NCBI GenBank assembly: GCA_034440135.1
Contig: JAWXBP010000058.1
Location: 1-45,462 of the forward strand
Source: Planctomycetia bacterium
GTDB taxonomy: Bacteria > Planctomycetota > Planctomycetia > Pirellulales > JALHLM01
Reading direction: 5' to 3'
DNA: 45,462 nucleotides
Below the pieces are notes generated by a model, which saw only the letters and a program-made list of their open reading frames with translations, did not search any database and was not told where the DNA came from. This document shows, in pieces, positions 8,612-40,875 of this stretch (position 1 is the first letter of the stretch; the number at the start of each line of letters is the position of its first letter). The translations under genes and the position numbers were made by a program.

Positions 8612-9439
8612 CTACCGTTTTGCGAGCGAAATGGTCAGCGCTGTGATCCACAGGCCGACCAGTATGGCGCAGGCAACCTTTTCCCATGCTTGCATCAGCA
8701 GCGGCGGGAAATGAGTGCGCGGTTGCTGAGGGTCGAAGCCGCGCGCTTGGACGGCGAAGGCCAGCGCCGAGGCGCGGCGCAGCGTGTTGGCCAGTAGCGG
8801 CTCGAGTAGTCTCAGCTCTTCCAGCAAGCGCATTCTTCGAAACTGAAAACGTCCGGCGCGCCGTAAGCCGGCGCGAAGTTGGTACGCTTGCCGCAGGGCC
8901 GCCCATTCTTCCAGGGCCAGCGGTATCGAACGGAGCGCCGCGGTGCCCATGTAGCTGAGCGGCGAGGGAATTCGCAGCCGCACGAGCGCCGCCATCAAGC
9001 GTTCCGGGCTGGTGGACAAGGCCACGGAGCTGCCGGCTAGCAGATTCGCGACAAACCGGAGCGATTGCCCTGCGCCGTAGCGCGCGCCTTCGGTATAAAA
9101 GTGCAGGCCGGCATAGTGTCTGCCGAGCCATGTAAACGCCGGCACGATGGTGAATAGCGGCGGGCGCGTCGTGTCATAATAGAACAAACCTTGGGACGAA
9201 ACGGTGCTCCAAATCACCAGCAGCGCGATGAACGCATAGGCCGCCGCGGCGCGCCAAGGAAAGCGTATCGCGAACAGGGGACAGGCGGCGACGAAACTCA
9301 GGGCGGCCAGCATCGCGACGGAATCGAACCAGATGCAGCCGATGGAAATCGTCGCGACCCACAGCAATTTCAAGCGCGGGTCGACTTGCACGAGCCAAGG
9401 CCGCGGCTCGACTTGTCGCAAGGCGTGCGACCAATTCAT
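8612..9439 (-). CDS. ecfT: Energy-coupling factor transporter transmembrane protein EcfT
   Basis: 275 residues, starting at ATG 9439 and overlapping the ATPase stop by 4 bases (ATGA). It opens with VDPRLKLLWVATISIGCIW, typical of CbiQ/EcfT proteins, and has about five hydrophobic membrane segments. The coupling-helix region with conserved Arg/Ala/Gly appears at LRAGLRRAGRF and again as AFAVQARGFD, corresponding to the two ATPase-contacting motifs of EcfT. It links the double ATPase to the substrate-binding S component in the inner membrane. It is the last gene of the ECF operon. Confidence 0.92.
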   Translation of the reverse strand: MNWSHALRQVEPRPWLVQVDPRLKLLWVATISIGCIWFDSVAMLAALSFVAACPLFAIRFPWRAAAAYAFIALLVIWSTVSSQGLFYYDTTRPPLFTIVPAFTWLGRHYAGLHFYTEGARYGAGQSLRFVANLLAGSSVALSTSPERLMAALVRLRIPSPLSYMGTAALRSIPLALEEWAALRQAYQLRAGLRRAGRFQFRRMRLLEELRLLEPLLANTLRRASALAFAVQARGFDPQQPRTHFPPLLMQAWEKVACAILVGLWITALTISLAKR

Positions 9440-10911
9440 GACGCGCGCTCCCGCGACGCCATCTCGCGCAAACAGGCCTCGAACGCTTCGATGGCGAACT
9501 TCGGCACATCATCGGCGATGATCCGCCCTCCGTCGAGCACGATCACGCGGTCGGCGAAATGCCTGGCCACCTGGAGGTCGTGCGTACTGAAGATCAACGT
9601 CTGGGGAGGGCCGCCGGCAGCGACGGCGTCTGTCAGCGTGCTCATCAACTGAGCTTCGTGCCGAGGGTCCTGTCCCGTGGTCGGTTCATCGAGCAGTAGC
9701 AGCGGCGCGCGCATGGTAAACGTCGCCGCAACGGCGACGCGGAGGCGCTCGCCTTGGCTCAAAAGCAATGGGGAGCGATCGAGCAATCGCTTCAATTCGA
9801 ATCGCTCCGCCGCATCGCGCACGCGCTCGGCGATTTCGTCGCGCGAGCAGCCGGCGTGTCGCGGCGCAAAGGCCAGTTCCTCGTGAACAGTGCGACAAAA
9901 CAACAACGTGTCCGGATTCTGGCGCACGAGTCCGACGGGCGCCGCACCCAAGAAATGAATGGCTCCGCTTTCCGGTTCATGCAGCCCTGCCAAGATCGCC
10001 AGCAATGTGCTTTTGCCGGAACCATTCGCGCCCAGCAGTGCGATACGCTCGCTGGCCTGTGCTCGGAAGTTCACGTCGCGCAACACGGCTGGACGTCGTC
10101 GATCGAACGTGAAGGTCAAGCGTTCGACTTCGACTAGCGGCGCACCCAGTACCGTATTGAGCGGACCATCTGGGGACTCTGACGACCGCAACCGCTTGAT
10201 CTCCGCGTCCCAAGCGGCGAAATCGCCTCGCGGCAAATTCGCGGCAAGTCGCCCCTCGTCTAGCACGAGCAACTGATCGGCCCGCTCCGTCCAGGCTGCG
10301 GTGCGGTGCTCGGCGACCACGATCGTCGGACCGCCGTCGGGCAAATTGTCGATCGCCGCCAGAAATTGCGCCGCCGCGCCGGGATCGAGTTGGCTCAACG
10401 GTTCATCGAGCAGCAACACTTCCGTGCGCATGGCCAACACTGCCGCCAAGACCAGCCGTTGTCGCTGCCCACCGGAGAGTTGTGCAACCTGGCGGTGGCG
10501 AAGTTCCTGTAGACCGACGAGTCGCAGCGCCTCGTCGATGCGGCGATCGATCTCGCTCGACTCGATCGCCAGGTTTTCCAACCCAAAGGCCACTTCGGAT
10601 TCCACGGTCGTCGTGCAAATCTGTGTATCGGGCGATTGCTGCACGAGCCCTACGAGCGCCGCGCGGCGCGCGGCTGGCAGTCGCCGTGGGTCATGCCCGG
10701 CAATGTTAATCTCACCTTGTCGCCGCGAGTGAACACTGTCCGCCAATAACCCGGCCAGCGCGTGCAATAGGGTCGATTTGCCGGCGCCGCTTGGGCCGAT
10801 CACCAGCGTGACGCTTCCGGCCGGTAGCGAAAACGTAACGTTATTGAGGGCCGGGGCGTCACCCGTCGGAAACGAGCAGCACAGCCCCTGGCAATGGATC
10901 GCCGCGGGCAT
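9436..10911 (-). CDS. Fused double ATP-binding subunit of an ECF transporter (YkoD-like)
   Basis: 491 residues from ATG 10911. The open frame extends upstream, but that part is a shadow of the S-component gene. There are two complete ABC domains. The first has Walker A GPSGAGKST at 39-47, signature LSGGQRQRL and Walker B EVLLLDEPLSQLD. The second has GANGSGKST, a less usual signature LSQGERLRV and PLLLLDEPTTGQD. Separate EcfA1/EcfA2 proteins are more common. A single fused chain of about 490 residues between an S component and EcfT is the YkoEDC layout associated with thiamine-precursor uptake (established for YkoEDC; substrate here inferred). The start overlaps the S-component stop in TGATG. 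Confidence 0.92.
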   Translation of the reverse strand: MPAAIHCQGLCCSFPTGDAPALNNVTFSLPAGSVTLVIGPSGAGKSTLLHALAGLLADSVHSRRQGEINIAGHDPRRLPAARRAALVGLVQQSPDTQICTTTVESEVAFGLENLAIESSEIDRRIDEALRLVGLQELRHRQVAQLSGGQRQRLVLAAVLAMRTEVLLLDEPLSQLDPGAAAQFLAAIDNLPDGGPTIVVAEHRTAAWTERADQLLVLDEGRLAANLPRGDFAAWDAEIKRLRSSESPDGPLNTVLGAPLVEVERLTFTFDRRRPAVLRDVNFRAQASERIALLGANGSGKSTLLAILAGLHEPESGAIHFLGAAPVGLVRQNPDTLLFCRTVHEELAFAPRHAGCSRDEIAERVRDAAERFELKRLLDRSPLLLSQGERLRVAVAATFTMRAPLLLLDEPTTGQDPRHEAQLMSTLTDAVAAGGPPQTLIFSTHDLQVARHFADRVIVLDGGRIIADDVPKFAIEAFEACLREMASRERAS

Positions 10912-11837
10912 CAACAGATCTCCCGCAGCCGCACGCCCCAGCGCGCGCCGACGATCGCGCCCAGTCCTCCGTACAACGCGCCGACGACGAGCGCCACGGC
11001 GGCGATGTAACTGGCCGGGTAGAACAGATCGAACAGCACTTCGTACATGCAATACTGCAGGAACCAGGCGCCGCCGTTGTAGACCGATAGCGCGAGCGCA
11101 CAACGTAACGGCCACGACCAACCGCGCGGCGCGACCGTGGTGATGTCTCCCGACCAGCGCGTCGCGCCGGTCAATAACAGGCAAAGTTCGCCGAGACTCG
11201 CACCAACAATGGCGAACCAGATATCCGTGGGCCCTAACTCGCCGGCGCAGATGCCGTTTAGAATGGCGACCGTGAGGTTCGAAAGGGCCAACGTCCCGGG
11301 GCGCGGGATGATCGCCACCGTGACGGCCTGAATCAACGTCGGGAGGACTTCACCGCCGAATCCGCTCACGAAGACAAAGTATGGCCCGACTAACACGCTA
11401 ATCACGGCGTCGGCGATTCGCGCCGTAAAGGAAATCGCGAAATGCACGCCGCTCAGCAGCGCGATCCGCGTCATGCCGACCACGCCGATGGCGGCCGTCA
11501 AACGCGGGCCGAAGCAAATCGCCGCGATCACGCCGGCAATCGACAGCACCGCCGCGACGCCCATCGCCGCCACGGCGATTGGGGTAGCTGGCTTTTCGAT
11601 TTCGTCCGCGGCGAGTGCCGGCGTGGCGAAACAGAGCATGATCGCGAGCGCGAGACAAATCGACGCTAGCCTGTCGTGCCAGCGAGGGTGAGACGACGTG
11701 GCACGAGAGTTTCCGGCCGTAATGGTAGCCGCTGTCAACTCTCCCTCGCTGGCGCTTCGGGCTAGTGTGAGGATGCTACGGGCTGGCGTCGCGACCTGTA
11801 CGGCGCTCGCGCTGGTCGCCGAAGTGCTGGCAGGCAT
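10911..11837 (-). CDS. ECF transporter S component-like membrane protein
   Basis: 308 residues from ATG 11837. The start is uncertain because the first 75 residues are low complexity and include the translation of a dispersed repeat (ARSASEGEL). A hydrophobic stretch with an Ala-rich end (ICLALAIMLCFATPALAA) follows, then about six membrane segments (AVAAVLSIAGVIAAICFG; FVFVSGFGGEVLPTL; AIVGASLGELCLLLTG; and others). The phrase IIPRPGTLALSNLTVAILNG recalls the conserved RxPG region of YkoE proteins. It probably binds the vitamin or precursor and couples to the fused ATPase and EcfT encoded next. No TPP riboswitch sequence was visible upstream, so the substrate remains open. Confidence 0.65.
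   Translation of the reverse strand: MPASTSATSASAVQVATPARSILTLARSASEGELTAATITAGNSRATSSHPRWHDRLASICLALAIMLCFATPALAADEIEKPATPIAVAAMGVAAVLSIAGVIAAICFGPRLTAAIGVVGMTRIALLSGVHFAISFTARIADAVISVLVGPYFVFVSGFGGEVLPTLIQAVTVAIIPRPGTLALSNLTVAILNGICAGELGPTDIWFAIVGASLGELCLLLTGATRWSGDITTVAPRGWSWPLRCALALSVYNGGAWFLQYCMYEVLFDLFYPASYIAAVALVVGALYGGLGAIVGARWGVRLREIC
11666..11765. repeat. Inverted pair of the planctomycete 'ARSASEGE/NPKRQRG' dispersed repeat
   Basis: Two 27-base units face each other: 11666-11692 and 11739-11765, with 22 of 27 positions matching after reverse complement. They flank about 46 bases and could pair as a hairpin. The core CCTCGCTGGCGCTTCGGG also occurs at 20821-20838. The arrangement resembles bacterial REP/BIME elements. 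It overlaps the 5' part of the S-component frame, which makes that protein's start doubtful. Confidence 0.75.
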
Positions 11838-11994
11838 CTTGCGTCGTATGCTATAAGGGTGCTGGATCAAGCTTGACGCGGCCCGCGCCCACGCGTTGTC
11901 GGGGTCAGCTTACTACTCGGTGAGTGCAGGAACCAGTGGATCGCACCGGCCCCCGACGGGCCGTGCGATGCACGTTGCCTTGAAGGACCGCCCG

Positions 11995-17579: not shown

Positions 17580-19598
17580 CTACTCTACGCCGCGTTTATT
17601 TTTGCGGCGAGCGAAGAGAAACGTGGCCAGGCCGGAGATCGAGAGCAACGCCCAGGTCGAGGGTTCCGGGACGCTGTTCGCGGCAGGGCCTGCGCCGAAG
17701 TTGTTGCGGACGTTGTTGAGGTCGGTGATGTCGACGTCGTTGTCGCCGTCGGTATCGCCGAGACCAGTGCCGCTGAAGTTGTTGCGGACGTTGTTCAAGT
17801 CCGTGATATCGACATCGCCGTCGCCGTCCGTGTCGCCCGGTTCGCCGCCTGGCGGCGTCTGGCCGAAGTAGTTCTTGCCATCCAGCACGTTGGCGTAATG
17901 CTCGGCGATTTCCGCCGGCGTCAGGCTGCGATTCCAGAAGGCGACTTCGTCGATGACGCCGTTGAACACTTTCGTGCCCGTCGACGACCCGATGAAACCG
18001 GCTGCCTCGCCGCCGGACGTGATGAGGGTGCCAGGCGCGCCGATCACGTACGCCCAACGCTTCACGCCATCGATGTAGATGGCTTTTTCGGAGGTGACGC
18101 TATCGTAGGTGGCGACGGCGTGATGGGCATTGCCGTCCTTGAGGACTACGTCGTTCGGGCCGAGCGGAGTGCCGGGGTCGTCGAGGTAAATGATCCCGGA
18201 ACCGGCGACGCCGCCCTCCAGCGATTCGATGTCGATATTGAGCGGCATATCGAGCTCATCGTACAGATCCCCGATGTTGAGCCCGAGCGAAAGGGCCGGA
18301 CCGACCGGGACCGGCGGGAAGGCCGTCGGCAAGGAATCGTTCTGGAACGAAAAGAGGATGCGGTTAGCGCCATCTTCTTTGCGGAAGATCTCCTCATGGG
18401 TGTCCACGGCATCGGGAGTCCAATTGGTCTGAATGAGGGCTTCAATCGAGACGCCGGTCGAGACCGTGAAGTCCGCATTGCCGCCATTGCCGACGCTGAC
18501 CGTGCTGCCGTTGACGTTATCGAAGAACGCCGCCCCCTTGCCGACGATGCCCGGCACGCGCGTTGCGCCGCCTTGGAAGGAGCCGTCGTTGTCCCCCTGA
18601 CGATCGTACGCAAAGTTCAGCTTGAAACCGGGGACGGGGCCTGGAGCTTCATCGAAATCCCAATGTGAAACCAGGCCTTCCGGCAAGCTGGCGAGATTGC
18701 CCGGGTCTGGGAGATTCGGATCGGGTTCGATTCTCGGTCCTTCGCCGCCGACTTGGAAGTTGTCGCTCCAGGTGCGATTTTGCCCGGCGGCGAGACCAGC
18801 ACCAGCGCCAACGGCGGCGTTGGAGAAGTTCTGATACAGACCACCGGCGAACGTCGTGAGGTCGATGATGCCTTTCGAGCTTTCATCGACGAAGATTTCG
18901 ACCGTCTTACCGATTTGATCGAATTGGACCGCGTAATTGTGCCAACGACCATCATTGGCGAGGCCGGTGTTGAAGGCGGGAATGGAAGCTTGGATCGGCG
19001 TATCCAGCGAGCCGTTGTAGAGGCTGGCGTTGCCGGAGCCGTCGCCGCGGATGAAGATCGACAGGCTGTTGCCTTGGAAGATGCTGCCTGGGGCGGGAGC
19101 GGAGGTGAAATCGATCCGATCTCCCGAGGCGACGAAATCCGCCTGGACGAAATACTTGGTGCGGATGCCGTAGTTGATGCCGAAGTCGACGCCCCCTCCA
19201 GTTTGCGTGAAGCCGGTGTCGCTACCGCCGCCGCTGCTGCCCGGGTAAACGGGCACGCCGTCGACGAGGCCAGGCATGCCGGGACCATCGGCCGCGAAGC
19301 TGAATTCGCCGCGACCGGGGGTGGTGAAGCTTTCGAAATTGGTCGGCGGATTGCCGTAGGTGTTTTCCAGCGGATAGGCGTCGGGCCCCTGAACGGCGGC
19401 CACATAGACGCGGGCGGGGTTGCTGCCACCGTTGTCGAATCCCGTGAAAGTGTCGGAGAAATCGAGCGTGGGAATCAGCGAGGAATTGCCAACCGTGACG
19501 CCACTGCCGCCCGGACCGAAGGAAACGGTGGCTTGGACGGAATTCAGGCCGAACGTCGCGGAAGCGGCGGCGAGAATGTAGACGCGCTTTTTGAACAT
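17580..19598 (-). CDS. Exported LamG-like protein with dockerin repeats and PEP-CTERM anchor
   Basis: 672 residues from ATG 19598, which has GAGAGG upstream and begins a signal peptide (MFKKRVYILAAASATFGLNS, cleavage near VQA). Two concanavalin A/LamG-like regions follow, about 20-240 and 270-560, the latter ending in the typical GVIDEVAFWNRSLTPAEIAEHY. Near 575-625 are two dockerin-type calcium loops, GDTDGDGDVDITDLNNVRN and GDTDGDNDVDITDLNNVRN. The C-terminus is a PEP-CTERM signal: VPEPSTWALL, hydrophobic helix, then Arg/Lys-rich RRKNKR. PEP-CTERM tails are processed by exosortase (established), so the protein is probably displayed on or released from the cell surface. The Asp-rich loops should bind calcium. 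The ligand is unknown. No exosortase is in the window. Confidence 0.9.
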   Translation of the reverse strand: MFKKRVYILAAASATFGLNSVQATVSFGPGGSGVTVGNSSLIPTLDFSDTFTGFDNGGSNPARVYVAAVQGPDAYPLENTYGNPPTNFESFTTPGRGEFSFAADGPGMPGLVDGVPVYPGSSGGGSDTGFTQTGGGVDFGINYGIRTKYFVQADFVASGDRIDFTSAPAPGSIFQGNSLSIFIRGDGSGNASLYNGSLDTPIQASIPAFNTGLANDGRWHNYAVQFDQIGKTVEIFVDESSKGIIDLTTFAGGLYQNFSNAAVGAGAGLAAGQNRTWSDNFQVGGEGPRIEPDPNLPDPGNLASLPEGLVSHWDFDEAPGPVPGFKLNFAYDRQGDNDGSFQGGATRVPGIVGKGAAFFDNVNGSTVSVGNGGNADFTVSTGVSIEALIQTNWTPDAVDTHEEIFRKEDGANRILFSFQNDSLPTAFPPVPVGPALSLGLNIGDLYDELDMPLNIDIESLEGGVAGSGIIYLDDPGTPLGPNDVVLKDGNAHHAVATYDSVTSEKAIYIDGVKRWAYVIGAPGTLITSGGEAAGFIGSSTGTKVFNGVIDEVAFWNRSLTPAEIAEHYANVLDGKNYFGQTPPGGEPGDTDGDGDVDITDLNNVRNNFSGTGLGDTDGDNDVDITDLNNVRNNFGAGPAANSVPEPSTWALLSISGLATFLFARRKNKRGVE

Positions 19599-19839
19599 GG
19601 GTGGGCCTCTCAGCGGAAGTGGGGCGGATAAGTAGGCGTGGGCGACGAAAGCGCCTGCCGAATTGGGCGGGCGATAGATTAACACGATTGAAATGAAAAT
19701 CCCACAAAAAACTTGGGAAAAGTGGGCTTTCGGGCTGGATCGACCAACGAAATCTTTTGTTGGAAATCCGCGAACCGGCGGTTCCAACTTGACGTAGTAG
19801 GTTCGGGTGAGAAGAATTGCGCCGTAAGGTGAATCGCAG

Positions 19840-20280
19840 ATGTTGTATACCGGAACATCCTCGTGGTTGGTGCGGGCGGCTGTTTGGCTGCTGCTGCCGG
19901 GGCTGGCGCTAAGTTCGCCCGCGATGGCGTGCGCCTGTGTCTGCGCGGCCACGGATAGCCCGGCCGGTTGTTGTGCGGCGGACGCGGAGATTGCTGCGGA
20001 GTCTTGCTGTTGCGATCTGCACGGAGCGGACTGCGCTTGCTCGCCCCAGCAGCACCATCAAGGCAGTTCCACCGGCGGCTGCGAATGCACCGTGCAGGTG
20101 GATTCACCGACGGTCCCTGGCGGCCCTGCCGTCCAGGTCGATCCGCCTTTGGCGGCTGGCTGGATGACAGGCTGCGACCACCTGCATCCGGGATTGTCCG
20201 ACGCCAAGTTGCAGACGGCTTGGGCTGCTGATATTCCGATTCGCAACCTCGTGATCGAGTTGAGGGTGCTGCGGATCTAA
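19840..20280 (+). CDS. Exported Cys-rich protein of unknown function
   Basis: 146 residues from ATG 19840, with AAGGTGA suitably placed upstream. The N-terminus is a signal peptide (SSWLVRAAVWLLLPGLALSS, then AMACA). Cysteines cluster between residues 30 and 82 in CACVCAA, GCCAAD, SCCCDLHGADCAC and GGCECTV, with a QQHH pair among them. The last 60 residues hold one further Cys in TGCDHLHPG, with two His nearby. The pattern suggests metal binding or disulfide bonding outside the cytoplasm. No known family is recognised. It sits just upstream of a second Cys-rich peptide gene on the same strand. Confidence 0.6.
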   Translation: MLYTGTSSWLVRAAVWLLLPGLALSSPAMACACVCAATDSPAGCCAADAEIAAESCCCDLHGADCACSPQQHHQGSSTGGCECTVQVDSPTVPGGPAVQVDPPLAAGWMTGCDHLHPGLSDAKLQTAWAADIPIRNLVIELRVLRI

Positions 20281-36417: not shown

Positions 36418-38553
36418 TTAGACCGCAGCGCGGAGACGGTTGAGGAAGCGCAAGGCGCCCCGGTAGATGCGCATGCCGAGCGCGTCGGTACGGGGCGGAA
36501 ACTTGACCTGCGCCGTCAGGCCGTGGCGGAGGTCGAAATCGGAGGGATCGAGCGCGATCGTCACCACATAGAACGGCTCGACCGCTTCCATGGTTGCGCT
36601 TTGCACGGCGATTTCGCCGCCGCCCAGGTGCGTGAGGGCAACGTCGTCGACGCGGCGATCCCCCGCCGCGGCGACGCGAAGAATACGGCCGTGCAGGGTC
36701 TCGTCGGCGGCGCCTCTTAGAATCGCCTGCACCGGCTGGCCGGCGACGGGCTGTGCGGCGAGGTAACCGTCGGCATTCAGCAAAGCGCGGACAACCCAGG
36801 CGCCGCGGGCGACTTCGGCGATGGGTTCGCCCATGTGGATAAAGCGTCCGGCGTCTTCCAGGCGGGCCACGTTGGTAACTTCGCCGCCCTCGACAGTGCG
36901 GATGACGAGCGCATCCAGTTGGCGCTGCGCTTCGGCGAGCTCGCGTTCCGCCTGTGCGAGACGCGCAGCGGCTTCGGCGGCGGCGGCGTGATCGGTCTGT
37001 AATGCGCCGCGCAATTCGCAGCGAATCCGTTCGACTTCCGCCTGCCGGATGCGCCGCAACGCGGTGAGGTCGGCGTTTTCCAGCACGGCCAACGTACTGC
37101 CCGGTGCGACCTTGTCGCCTTCGTGCACCGAAAGCTCGCGCACAAAGCCATCGGCCTCGGCGTGAAGGACTTGATCGTCCTCGCGCGCGACGATGCCGAC
37201 CGCCTGGCGCGCGAGCGGAATGGGAGTGAGCAGGAACAACGCCGGAGCGACGAAACCCAAGCCGCCGACGACAGCCCACACGCGTTTGCGCTGCGCCGGC
37301 CCGACGGCGGCGTTTTTGAGGAAGTCGCGGATTTGTCGGAAGCTGTCGCGGATCGCCCCCAAGGCGTAGAACATCGCAAAACCAACGCCGGCCACGGGCA
37401 CCGTGAGCGCGAGCATCGTGCAGATGCCCAAGGTGATCAGGACTTTGTAGGCGCTCGAGGCGATGCCGTAGGCGATCAGGCCGTAGCGGACGCCGCGACG
37501 ATGGGGCGACGCGTACGGCGTGCCGAGCGCCCAATGGCGTACTAGTCCGTGGGTTTCCGCCTTCGATTGTTGCGCCAGATTGGGAATCTCGAGCAGGTCG
37601 GTGAGGACGAAGTAACCGTCGAACTTCATCAGCGGGTTGATATTGAAGCCGACGGTCACCACGGTGCTGAGCACCATCGCGTAGTGCGCGGCGGAGTTGA
37701 TGAAGCCGGGTTCTGACGTACACCAGATTACGAGCGCGGCCATCGCCAGGAAGGATTCCACATAGATGCCGGCCAGCGAGACGATGATGCGGTCCAGCCG
37801 GCGCGGAAAGCCCCAAGCGGCCGAGGCGTCGACATAGGCGCAAGGCGTGAGCAGCACGAAGTACGCGCCCATCTCAGGAACTCGGCCGCCGTAATGTTTG
37901 CAGGCGTAGGCGTGCCCGAATTCGTGGGCGACCTTGAGCCCAATGAGCAAGCTCCAAAGCATCGGCAAATTGCCAAGCGCGAGCATCGAGCCCAAGGGAT
38001 TGCAGAAATCGCTCCACCGAAGCCAGAGCACGGTGAAAGAGGCCAGGGAGCCGAGCACCCAGATGATGAAGGCCGTCCGCGTGAACAGCGGGCGAAACCA
38101 GTTGACGGTGCGTTGCAGGAAATCGTCCGGGCGCAACAGCGGCACGCGATAAAACAGATACCGCATCGGCCCGGCCTGGCGTTCCAATTGTTTGCGGCGC
38201 TCGTAGCGGGCGTAGAGCTGCTGTCCGTCGGAAACCGGCAAGCTGAGCAGTCCGCGCTGGTTGAGTCCCACGACGAAGCGGTAAAAACCTTCCTCGTCGT
38301 CTTTCGCCAGGATGTCGCCAGCGACGAGGCGCTCGAAGACGTTGCTGAGCAATCGATCAGCGGTCAATTCGCAGACGATGCGGTAGTCGGTGTCGTTGAG
38401 ATGATGCGTTTGGAACGTGATGGGATCACGGAGCAAGTAGGCCGACTGCCCTCGGAAAACGTGCCGGCTGACTTCGAGTTCCGGGCGGAGCCTGACGCAG
38501 ACTTTTCCCAGACGTTCAGCGAAATTGACGGGAGCCCCCGGCGCTTGGCTCAT
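36418..38553 (-). CDS. M50 (site-2 protease-like) metalloprotease fused to an HlyD-type adaptor domain
   Basis: 711 residues from ATG 38553, overlapping the upstream gene by ATGA (ATG 38565 is an alternative). An N-terminal winged-helix or PqqD-like region (about 45-110), then a multi-spanning protease core: zinc motif HEFGH at 210-214 in KVAHEFGHAYACKHYGG, LLTPCAYVDAS, and the third-ligand motif NPLMKFDGYF with Asp312. Further membrane segments follow to about 450. The C-terminal part is a lipoyl/HlyD-like module (DQVLHAEADGFVRELSVHEGDKV, a coiled-coil of about 60 residues, and a barrel). This matches proteins annotated as putative peptide zinc metalloproteases. It probably works with the GAF-HlyD protein in export or processing of a peptide or protein. 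Substrate unknown. Confidence 0.9.
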   Translation of the reverse strand: MSQAPGAPVNFAERLGKVCVRLRPELEVSRHVFRGQSAYLLRDPITFQTHHLNDTDYRIVCELTADRLLSNVFERLVAGDILAKDDEEGFYRFVVGLNQRGLLSLPVSDGQQLYARYERRKQLERQAGPMRYLFYRVPLLRPDDFLQRTVNWFRPLFTRTAFIIWVLGSLASFTVLWLRWSDFCNPLGSMLALGNLPMLWSLLIGLKVAHEFGHAYACKHYGGRVPEMGAYFVLLTPCAYVDASAAWGFPRRLDRIIVSLAGIYVESFLAMAALVIWCTSEPGFINSAAHYAMVLSTVVTVGFNINPLMKFDGYFVLTDLLEIPNLAQQSKAETHGLVRHWALGTPYASPHRRGVRYGLIAYGIASSAYKVLITLGICTMLALTVPVAGVGFAMFYALGAIRDSFRQIRDFLKNAAVGPAQRKRVWAVVGGLGFVAPALFLLTPIPLARQAVGIVAREDDQVLHAEADGFVRELSVHEGDKVAPGSTLAVLENADLTALRRIRQAEVERIRCELRGALQTDHAAAAEAAARLAQAERELAEAQRQLDALVIRTVEGGEVTNVARLEDAGRFIHMGEPIAEVARGAWVVRALLNADGYLAAQPVAGQPVQAILRGAADETLHGRILRVAAAGDRRVDDVALTHLGGGEIAVQSATMEAVEPFYVVTIALDPSDFDLRHGLTAQVKFPPRTDALGMRIYRGALRFLNRLRAAV

Positions 38554-40424
38554 AGCTTCCACCATTGCAAGCGCACGGTGTCGATGGCGCGGTGCAACAG
38601 CGCCCAATAGACGGGGCGTCGGCCGGTTTCGACGCGCGCCACGCCACTCATGCCGACACGGACCCAATCGGGCGAGGCCTCGATCGAGGCTTCGGCGCGA
38701 AATACGTTGTGGGAATCGACGACTTGCGCGAGCGGCTCAACATTGAGCAACTTGAGTCTGCCTTGCTCGTCGGGTTGCGAGAGCGTCGTAAACACGCCTG
38801 GCTGGCCGGCTTTCAGCAAGACGGCGGCGTGCTCCGGCGCATGCAGTTCGATGGCGCAACGGTCGTTCGCCGCGATCGAATACAGCGGCTCGCCCAGCGG
38901 GACGATCTCGCCGATGCGACGTCGCAGATCGCCTTCGAGGATGATGCCATCGGCGGGGGCGACGATTTTGGCGCGGGCGAGTTGGTAATCGAGCAGCTCC
39001 AACTCCGCGCGGTGCATCTCGGCTTGCGCGCCGGTCATGCCTGCGGCGACGGTGTCTTGTGCTTGCAGCGCGGCGGTGAGTTCCAATTCGGCGGCGCGCA
39101 ACTGCGCGGCCACTTTGTCACGCTTCAACAGGATGTCGCGGGTATCAAACTCGGCGAGCAGTTGTCCAGCCCGGACGCGTTCGCCGGGCAGTGCCGCGGC
39201 GCGCAGCAAGGTTCCCTCGAACGGCGCGGCGATGCGTCGTTCCTCGGCGGCAATGATCTCGCAAGGGACCGTAACGACGTACGTCGTGCTGCCGAACAGC
39301 AACCAGCCGAGCGCCGGCAGCAGCGCCAAATACAGGCACTGTTTGAAGCGCGGCGCCGTGCGAAGCGCCCGCCAGCCTTCGCGAGCGCGATCGGAGACGT
39401 GTCGCGCGATGCCGCGCTCCGCGCGGGCGAGCACGAGCAACACCGGCGCGATCGGCGCGAGCAACCCGGCCCAATCCGTGATCAAGTCGCGCGAGAATTG
39501 TTCTTGGGAATCGGCGCGAAAGCTCACGACGGCGACGACCTGGCCTTCGTGCGTGAGCGGAATCGACGCGACCGTCGCGCCGCCGATGTGCTGGTGCCAT
39601 TGCTTGTGGAGCAGCTGGCCGGTGGGCGTGGCAGTCTCGAACGGCTGCCCCGTGCGCTGCCAGCCGACGGGAACGCCCGCGTCGAGGCATTCCTCCATGG
39701 CCTGTTGCATTTCGCGAACGCCGGGCGATCGCGGCAGCACATCGTCGAGTCCGGAAATGCACTCGATGCGAATGTTCGCGCCGCGGACGAGCCCGAGAGC
39801 GACTTGCTCACAGCCGGTGCGGCTCTTCAAACTGTTGACGACGCCGAACACGAAATGCCGCAGATTGTCGTATGCGGCGGCTTTGGTGAGCGACTGCGAC
39901 GCCCGGGCTTCGTCACCCGAAGCGGCGGCCGCAGGTTTCGTCGGCGCGGGCTGGTAGAGGGATCCCGAGAGAGCCGCGAGCGCTTTGAACTCACCTAGCC
40001 GTGCTTGCATGACCGCTTTGCCGAGATCGGGGACGATCAAGGCAATGGCGCCGTTGGGCTCTTGCTCCAGTAGCGCCAAAGGCACCGCGAGCGCCGCCTG
40101 GCCGCCAATGCCGGCGGCGGAGAGCCGAGCTTTTCCAACGTTGTGATAGCGCGCTTCCAGCAACAGCGCGTCCGCGAGGCGTTTCCACTCGTCGGCTTGT
40201 TGCGGCGCACGCGCGAGTTCATGCCGGCGTGCGCCCGTGGCGGTTTCGAGTTGAGCAAGTGCGTACGCGGCCTCGAAGCGTTCGGCCAGAATGCGCATCA
40301 CTTGGGCGAGGAATTCGTTGGCGTCGCGCGCCGTCGAGGCGGCGTGGCGCAGCGCGGCGCAGACGTCCATCGTGGTGGACGCCGTGGCAGTCGAAGCGGC
40401 GGGAGAAGTCGCAGGGGTGGACAT
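38550..40424 (-). CDS. GAF-domain membrane fusion (HlyD-like) protein
   Basis: 624 residues from ATG 40424. Two GAF-like regions precede the membrane: about 20-160 (FLAQVMRILAERFEAAYALAQLE) and about 195-350 (LRHFVFGVVNSLKS to VAVVSFRADSQEQF). A transmembrane segment (CLYLALLPALGWLLFG) at about 380-395 is followed by an HlyD-type region: CEIIAAEERRIAAPFEGTL and ERVRAGQLLAEFDTRD (lipoyl half-motif), a coiled coil, and DGIILEGDLRRRIGEIV (second half-motif). The usual HlyD N-terminal tail is thus replaced by a cytoplasmic sensor. It overlaps the M50-HlyD gene (ATGA) and lies 28 bases after the PilZ gene. Confidence 0.9.
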   Translation of the reverse strand: MSTPATSPAASTATASTTMDVCAALRHAASTARDANEFLAQVMRILAERFEAAYALAQLETATGARRHELARAPQQADEWKRLADALLLEARYHNVGKARLSAAGIGGQAALAVPLALLEQEPNGAIALIVPDLGKAVMQARLGEFKALAALSGSLYQPAPTKPAAAASGDEARASQSLTKAAAYDNLRHFVFGVVNSLKSRTGCEQVALGLVRGANIRIECISGLDDVLPRSPGVREMQQAMEECLDAGVPVGWQRTGQPFETATPTGQLLHKQWHQHIGGATVASIPLTHEGQVVAVVSFRADSQEQFSRDLITDWAGLLAPIAPVLLVLARAERGIARHVSDRAREGWRALRTAPRFKQCLYLALLPALGWLLFGSTTYVVTVPCEIIAAEERRIAAPFEGTLLRAAALPGERVRAGQLLAEFDTRDILLKRDKVAAQLRAAELELTAALQAQDTVAAGMTGAQAEMHRAELELLDYQLARAKIVAPADGIILEGDLRRRIGEIVPLGEPLYSIAANDRCAIELHAPEHAAVLLKAGQPGVFTTLSQPDEQGRLKLLNVEPLAQVVDSHNVFRAEASIEASPDWVRVGMSGVARVETGRRPVYWALLHRAIDTVRLQWWKL

Positions 40425-40452
40425 CGGATGTCTGAGCGGTGGCTGGCCTGGG

Positions 40453-40875
40453 TTAGGCCTTGAGTTCGACTTCCTCGGCGAGCGCGCCGGCGATCTGCAC
40501 ATCGGCGAAGAAGCGGAAGCCAATTTCGAAGGCCTCTTCGCTGATCATGCGGCAGCGCATGCAACGCGCGAACAGCGAACCGACGTTGAGTCGCTCGGCG
40601 TCGAAGGTCAACCAAAAAACGTCGCCAGGCAGCAGCGGGCGCGGGCCGATCACCATGCAACCGCCGTTGGAGATATCAGCGGTGACGCAATCGAGCGGGT
40701 TCCGGCCGCGTTCGCTCGCATTGCCGGGCTGTACCTTGAGGGGCACGCGGATTTGCAACCGCTCGTGTGCGCGGAGCCGCGTAACATTCTCTTGCGAGCT
40801 TTGCTCCAATTCGGCCAGCGCGCTAATCAGCTCGCTCTGGCCGAACAAATCCCAATCCTGCTCTTTCGCGAACAT
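40453..40875 (-). CDS. PilZ domain protein (predicted c-di-GMP binding)
   Basis: 140 residues from ATG 40875; the longer frame to 40995 lacks a conserved look. The domain covers about 38-135, with RLRAHERLQIRVPLKV (RxxR-like region; one expected Arg is Gln-flanked) and the DxSxxG-type motif DISNGGCMV. LPGDVFWLTFD and EAFEIGFRFF complete the barrel. PilZ proteins sense cyclic di-GMP and control motility, secretion or polysaccharide export. As the first gene of an operon with GAF-HlyD and M50-HlyD proteins, it may gate that export system. Ligand binding should be tested because the first motif is not canonical. Confidence 0.82.
   Translation of the reverse strand: MFAKEQDWDLFGQSELISALAELEQSSQENVTRLRAHERLQIRVPLKVQPGNASERGRNPLDCVTADISNGGCMVIGPRPLLPGDVFWLTFDAERLNVGSLFARCMRCRMISEEAFEIGFRFFADVQIAGALAEEVELKA

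Follow-up and report, generated by a model that had tools for sequence, protein, structure and literature searches.

In the sections devoted to it, the paper of Kamneva, Poudel and Ward (2015; PMC4452313) describes a secretion-like module in which an M50-HlyD protein and a GAF-HlyD protein are encoded with a secondary SecA, HlyD and OEP. These authors proposed that SecA_DEAD is the ATPase and the M50 protein the pore, noted that in some genomes module partners, including the secondary SecA, are encoded away from the locus, and called the broader biological role of the module completely unknown. Those sections do not mention a PqqD/RRE domain, and PilZ, LEPR and DUF4347 have zero mentions in the text of the paper. 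We found no later functional paper on the module in the open-access literature. Two other systems are comparable: type I secretion (HlyB-HlyD-TolC; Lap-type), with its HlyD adaptors, OEP channel and RTX/cadherin giant cargo, and the daptide and YydH-LiaK RiPP proteases, which have a related M50 core and follow a leader-peptide logic.

A PilZ-headed variant of the M50-HlyD/GAF-HlyD module

The window, i.e., the whole stretch of DNA analysed (45,462 nucleotides), is one entire contig of a planctomycete assembly of 7.29 Mb in 534 contigs, and a homology search found a 95%-identical counterpart of the locus in a Pirellulales record. As originally predicted, three minus-strand genes are tightly packed, with a 28-base spacer between the PilZ and GAF-HlyD genes and an ATGA overlap (within ...AAGCTATGAGC...) between the GAF-HlyD and M50-HlyD genes. 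The features of the operon are as follows.

40453..40875 (-), PilZ gene, first of the operon; 140 aa; Pfam PilZ 2.2e-12
40759..40773 (-), RxxxR c-di-GMP motif (R35, R39); both Arg invariant in 9 homologues
40660..40677 (-), DxSxxG c-di-GMP motif (D67, S69, G72); invariant in 9 homologues
38550..40424 (-), GAF-GAF-TM-HlyD adaptor gene; 624 aa; Pfam and NCBIfam; model pLDDT 85.9
39945..40379 (-), GAF domain 1, cytoplasmic; residues about 16-160 (10-167 in the model); NifA 9qq6 profile 2e-7; 4g3k Z 13.6, 136 aligned, 2.8 A
39414..39917 (-), GAF domain 2, cytoplasmic; residues about 170-337 (170-339 in the model); GAF_2 28.9 bits, over cut-off; 3ci6 Z 14.3, 141 aligned, 3.8 A
39291..39347 (-), membrane helix; residues about 360-378; hydropathy, and model helix 359-377
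38613..39290 (-), HlyD/MacA-like periplasmic adaptor domain; HlyD_3 3.6e-14; MacA Z 16.9, 241 aligned, 3.5 A
36418..38553 (-), PqqD/RRE-like - M50 - HlyD gene; 711 aa; model pLDDT 84.2
38260..38529 (-), PqqD/RRE-like N-terminal domain; residues about 9-98; family profile matches PqqD 3g2b at 2e-5 and lasso RRE TfuB1 6jx3 at 1e-4
37912..37926 (-), HEFGH zinc and catalytic motif, residues 210-214; H210, E211 and H214 invariant in 40 homologues
37618..37644 (-), NINPLMKFD motif with presumed third zinc ligand Asp312; N304 and D312 invariant
36481..37224 (-), C-terminal HlyD/MacA-like adaptor domain; HlyD_3 3.4e-7; MacA Z 16.0, 217 aligned, 4.4 A, over 434-693

We consider it rather likely that the three genes specify the inner-membrane core, with receptor, processing and gating functions, of a type I-like tripartite exporter that lacks an ABC component and has giant surface proteins with an LEPR-XLL leader as its cargo. 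The M50-HlyD/GAF-HlyD core has been known since 2015; what is new is its links to the LEPR giants and to a leader found in a PilZ-linked subclade, and the invariance of its metalloprotease residues. Unlike the described module, the window locus has no SecA, HlyD or OEP genes of its own, and PilZ belongs to the operon. The operon is a variant of that module rather than a typical member, because the secondary SecA lies outside the locus, alone on another contig. The original prediction had the export role right and overlooked the 2015 description with its SecA-like ATPase.

No giant protein or SecA gene is present in the window, and a six-frame motif scan of it found no LEPR-XLL. Downstream of the operon, on the same strand, are OmpH (68 bases on), LpxC, LpxA and a Gfo/Idh gene; this neighbourhood is absent around the modules of relatives and is probably incidental. 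The operon itself has no ABC or RND gene, as had been stated: the ABC ATPase encoded at 9436-11184 is part of an ECF-type set (8612-11870, minus strand; T component, duplicated ABC ATPase and membrane protein, assigned by eye) that is unlinked to it. A small-molecule efflux pump was rejected as an explanation, since no RND or ABC partner recurs. Also on the minus strand, a frame of 790 aa (17580-19952), judged by eye, combines LamG-like and dockerin-like parts with a PEP-CTERM-like tail, another surface-sorting signal.

Recurrence was assessed in an unbiased set of 25 loci retrieved with the M50 protein alone. GAF-HlyD adjoins M50-HlyD in 23 of them, so the pairing is not due to chance; one exception is a truncated 4.5-kb contig and the other has an antisense ORF in place of GAF-HlyD. 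The system view had been made to depend on such recurrence as a unit, and on this point it stands. A neighbourhood survey for a recurrent substrate or TolC-like gene, also proposed with the prediction, returned candidates for both: a giant protein of one shared cluster in 14 of these loci (clusters were automatic and have a few false members; the giant cluster, for instance, includes a 258-aa HlyD of locus L028) and an OEP protein in 7/25. A further HlyD is present in 18/25 loci, and a SecA-like ATPase adjoins M50 in 9/25. In several planctomycetes outside the PilZ-linked subclade, small DUF3467 proteins (PF11950; E-values of 2e-24 and 2e-11 for the two proteins searched) lie in or near the module:

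L100:6271-7004, L107:8074-8430, L110:17657-18085, L115:12550-12933 and L116:7122-7511, DUF3467 proteins

The M50-HlyD protein resembles a site-2 protease

For the third protein, Pfam HlyD_3 scores above its cut-off and Peptidase_M50 slightly under it (24.3 versus 27.2 bits). Its fold, like that of GAF-HlyD, was judged on an AlphaFold model compared with solved structures. Residues 191-322 form an RseP-like M50 core (model versus 7w6y: Z 10.8, 130 aligned, 2.9 A), and H210, E211, H214, N304 and D312 do not vary among 40 homologues from Planctomycetota, Pseudomonadota and Thermodesulfobacteriota. Judged by sequence and model, the M50 part has the hallmarks of a site-2 protease: HExxH and a distal Asp in membrane helices, within an S2P fold. 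The predicted polytopic protease with HEFGH, Asp312 and a C-terminal HlyD module is thus borne out by the invariant residues and by the RseP-like and MacA-like folds.

These data bear on the proposal of Kamneva et al. (PMC4452313) that M50-HlyD is an inner-membrane pore, its protease activity being incidental and SecA_DEAD supplying the ATPase. According to hydropathy and the model, the protein crosses the membrane several times, and the locus encodes no other channel, as that proposal would have it. However, a pore alone would give no reason for five residues to stay invariant across three phyla, and the M50 core folds like a site-2 protease; the pore and protease roles are nevertheless compatible. 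We regard the pore with incidental protease as unlikely.

Closer inspection of the N terminus revealed a part of the anatomy that the original prediction had overlooked. The first ~100 residues look like a PqqD/RRE-like, i.e., leader-peptide-binding-like, domain. This assignment comes from sequence profiles, the listed matches of the structure search with the M50 model being taken up by HlyD; Pfam PqqD matches 13 of 33 M50-HlyD homologues (best 1.2e-8), and the window's own protein, taken alone, gives no match. RRE domains of RiPP enzymes bind leader peptides. Such a domain, together with matches to the daptide protease model NF041824 (7e-43) and to YydH/LiaK (2e-7), both under cut-off, could point to a RiPP-like export locus in which M50 would process a small modified peptide, in the manner of daptide and epipeptide loci. 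Yet neither score exceeds half of its family cut-off (147 bits against a curated 300 for NF041824). Moreover, the window protein differs from the daptide protease in its HlyD fusion and its giant-protein linkage, and the recurrent neighbours include no maturation enzyme or ABC exporter; the one that recurs is a giant protein. A RiPP-like peptide-maturation locus is accordingly very improbable. A small RiPP substrate was rejected as first choice, with scores far under the cut-offs and no conserved precursor gene seen. The peptide-export comparison made originally may hold for the mechanism and does not hold for family membership; as to the substrate, the likely cargo is not a peptide but the giant LEPR-XLL proteins that are the recurrent neighbours.

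GAF and PilZ domains as candidate regulators

The GAF-HlyD model comprises two GAF folds, one membrane helix and then an HlyD/MacA-like adaptor. This is the predicted arrangement of two GAF-like regions ahead of the membrane segment, and the Pfam matches (GAF_2 and HlyD_3 above cut-off) and structure matches agree on it. The identity of the first gene as PilZ is likewise secure from its Pfam score and intact c-di-GMP motifs; having both RxxxR and (D/N)xSxxG, its product shows the sequence signature of a c-di-GMP receptor and is a predicted binder. Regulation by c-di-GMP and GAF ligands, as first suggested, is a fair proposal. Genes of c-di-GMP type also recur near modules of other clades: a GGDEF/PAS gene comes after the module in Burkholderiales (L015:10889-12463 and relatives), and an HD-domain response regulator does so in Stieleria-type loci (L018:12341-13519 and relatives).

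Could the operon instead be a c-di-GMP release/retention switch, cutting loose giants that leave by another route, as in Lap systems? The PilZ protein with its intact motifs, the cadherin/RTX giants adjoining the module in relatives, and the GGDEF and HD-domain response-regulator genes near modules of other clades would all suit such a switch. However, a membrane-embedded M50 site and an N-terminal RRE-like domain fit leader recognition rather than the cutting of an exported adhesin, and two HlyD modules imply a conduit. We consider a switch of this kind quite unlikely, and favour an export core that acts on giant proteins.

Giant LEPR-XLL proteins as candidate cargo

The giants that recur next to the module are of DUF4347, cadherin, Big_9 and RTX types. 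An LExR-type motif lies near the N terminus of 23 nearby proteins of >400 aa, and the pattern L-E-x-R-[ILV]-[LVM]-[LF]-[SDTN]-A is found in most giants with a visible N terminus, often behind a basic stretch. All but one of these 23 motif-selected proteins are devoid of a signal-peptide-like helix: near the motif, mean hydropathy over 15 residues never exceeds 2.0. This leader corresponds to a named domain, LEPR-XLL, the N-terminal motif of NCBIfam LEPR-8K (NF012209). We found no exporter or secretion role for LEPR-XLL proteins in the literature searched.

Among 199 Planctomycetota genomes, LEPR-8K occurs in 11, and 10 of these also have M50-HlyD (46 overall); among 200 Burkholderiales genomes it occurs in 26, of which 25 have a full-length M50-HlyD (42 overall), the lone exception being a 23-residue open frame. 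The p-values (1.7e-6 and 1.3e-19, respectively) are too small because the genomes within each table are related, and the two groups are from separate phyla, Burkholderiales being independent of Planctomycetota. Secondary SecA, called by open-frame length and match span, was found in approximately 31 of the same Planctomycetota genomes among the matches listed, 29 of them with M50-HlyD (p=1e-20, subject to the same relatedness). Within Burkholderiales, 19/62 LEPR matches lie <=45 kb from an M50 gene. Nine of ten genomes reached via module loci have LEPR matches. We consider an association of the module with LEPR giants likely. LEPR-XLL open frames in Burkholderiales reach about 14,000 codons (G418:C22, G380:C2 and G511:C1).

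Proposed mechanism

From the domain order, the invariant residues and the linkage to LEPR giants, we propose leader recognition, M50 cleavage and HlyD/OEP transport. The PqqD/RRE-like domain of M50-HlyD would bind the LEPR leader in the cytoplasm, and the site-2-protease-like M50 core would cleave it. The unfolded giant would then pass outward by way of the two HlyD modules, another HlyD and an OEP/TolC-type channel, the last two being products of genes outside the operon, in an export step gated by PilZ through c-di-GMP and by the two GAF domains. The motor in most genomes would be the secondary SecA-like ATPase, in the window's genome the 669-aa protein on contig C72. We infer that the leader is bound and cleaved, that the step is gated and that products of distant genes join the assembly, and these parts differ in strength: the chances of c-di-GMP gating seem evenly balanced, and those of leader cleavage by M50 a little poorer than even. 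The pathway would differ from classical type I secretion in that an ABC exporter is absent from the operon and from the recurrent neighbours, and its proposed cargo proteins have an LEPR leader in common at the N terminus.

More tentatively still, LEPR-XLL may be the leader of a distinct giant-protein secretion route, recognised and removed by an RRE-protease-HlyD receptor, with transport driven by a non-ABC motor such as a SecA paralogue and, in the window's subclade, a PilZ c-di-GMP gate. LEPR-XLL giants are known from several phyla, their longest open frames running to about 14,000 codons, and no cargo has been assigned to the SecA/M50/HlyD module since its description in 2015; joining the two makes both testable through one leader, one candidate receptor domain and one protease residue. 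If true, planctomycete c-di-GMP would be tied to the display of giant surface proteins.

The PilZ-linked subclade and partners in the window's own genome

In a tree, the PilZ-linked M50 proteins, including that of the window, form one monophyletic clade with support 100/100. PilZ homologues lie directly upstream of GAF-HlyD in all subclade loci with enough sequence and in none of the other loci examined; at one subclade locus (L095) a 128-aa ORF in this position is spurious, and the true PilZ was recovered by profile. The giants of the subclade share the leader LExRILLS(A/G)TWVDA(D/E). With a degenerate DNA pattern, LExRILLSATWVD was found in 7/11 subclade genomes versus 0/4 others, and reversed patterns gave 0 matches. 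Secondary SecA is present in 7/10 subclade genomes; the three in which none was found are G300, G349 and G350, one of them assembled in 2 contigs. A SecA-like motor is therefore not obligatory in the subclade.

In the window's own genome, the subclade leader was not found with <=2 mismatches allowed, nor was it in a same-genus genome, both assemblies being fragmented, and NF012209 gives no match at E 0.001. This model misses variants, as contig C404 illustrates: it carries OEP, HlyD and a 1640-aa RTX/cadherin giant with LEPRILRSA, which escaped. The candidate partners of the operon lie on other contigs. The 669-aa SecA-like protein stands alone on contig C72 and is 64% identical to the module-linked SecA of genome G015. 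Since two further M50-HlyD paralogues are encoded in the genome, on C438 and C92, the C72 SecA and the C404 set may serve these instead of the window operon. For the C72 SecA this may be C438, because the G015 gene, its closest homologue, adjoins an M50 of C438 type.

Apart from the secondary SecA, three planctomycetes encode their housekeeping SecA in unusually long open frames (1358-1529 aa; G349:C60, G350:C204 and G551:C84), which agrees with the SecA domain rearrangements described in PMC4452313.
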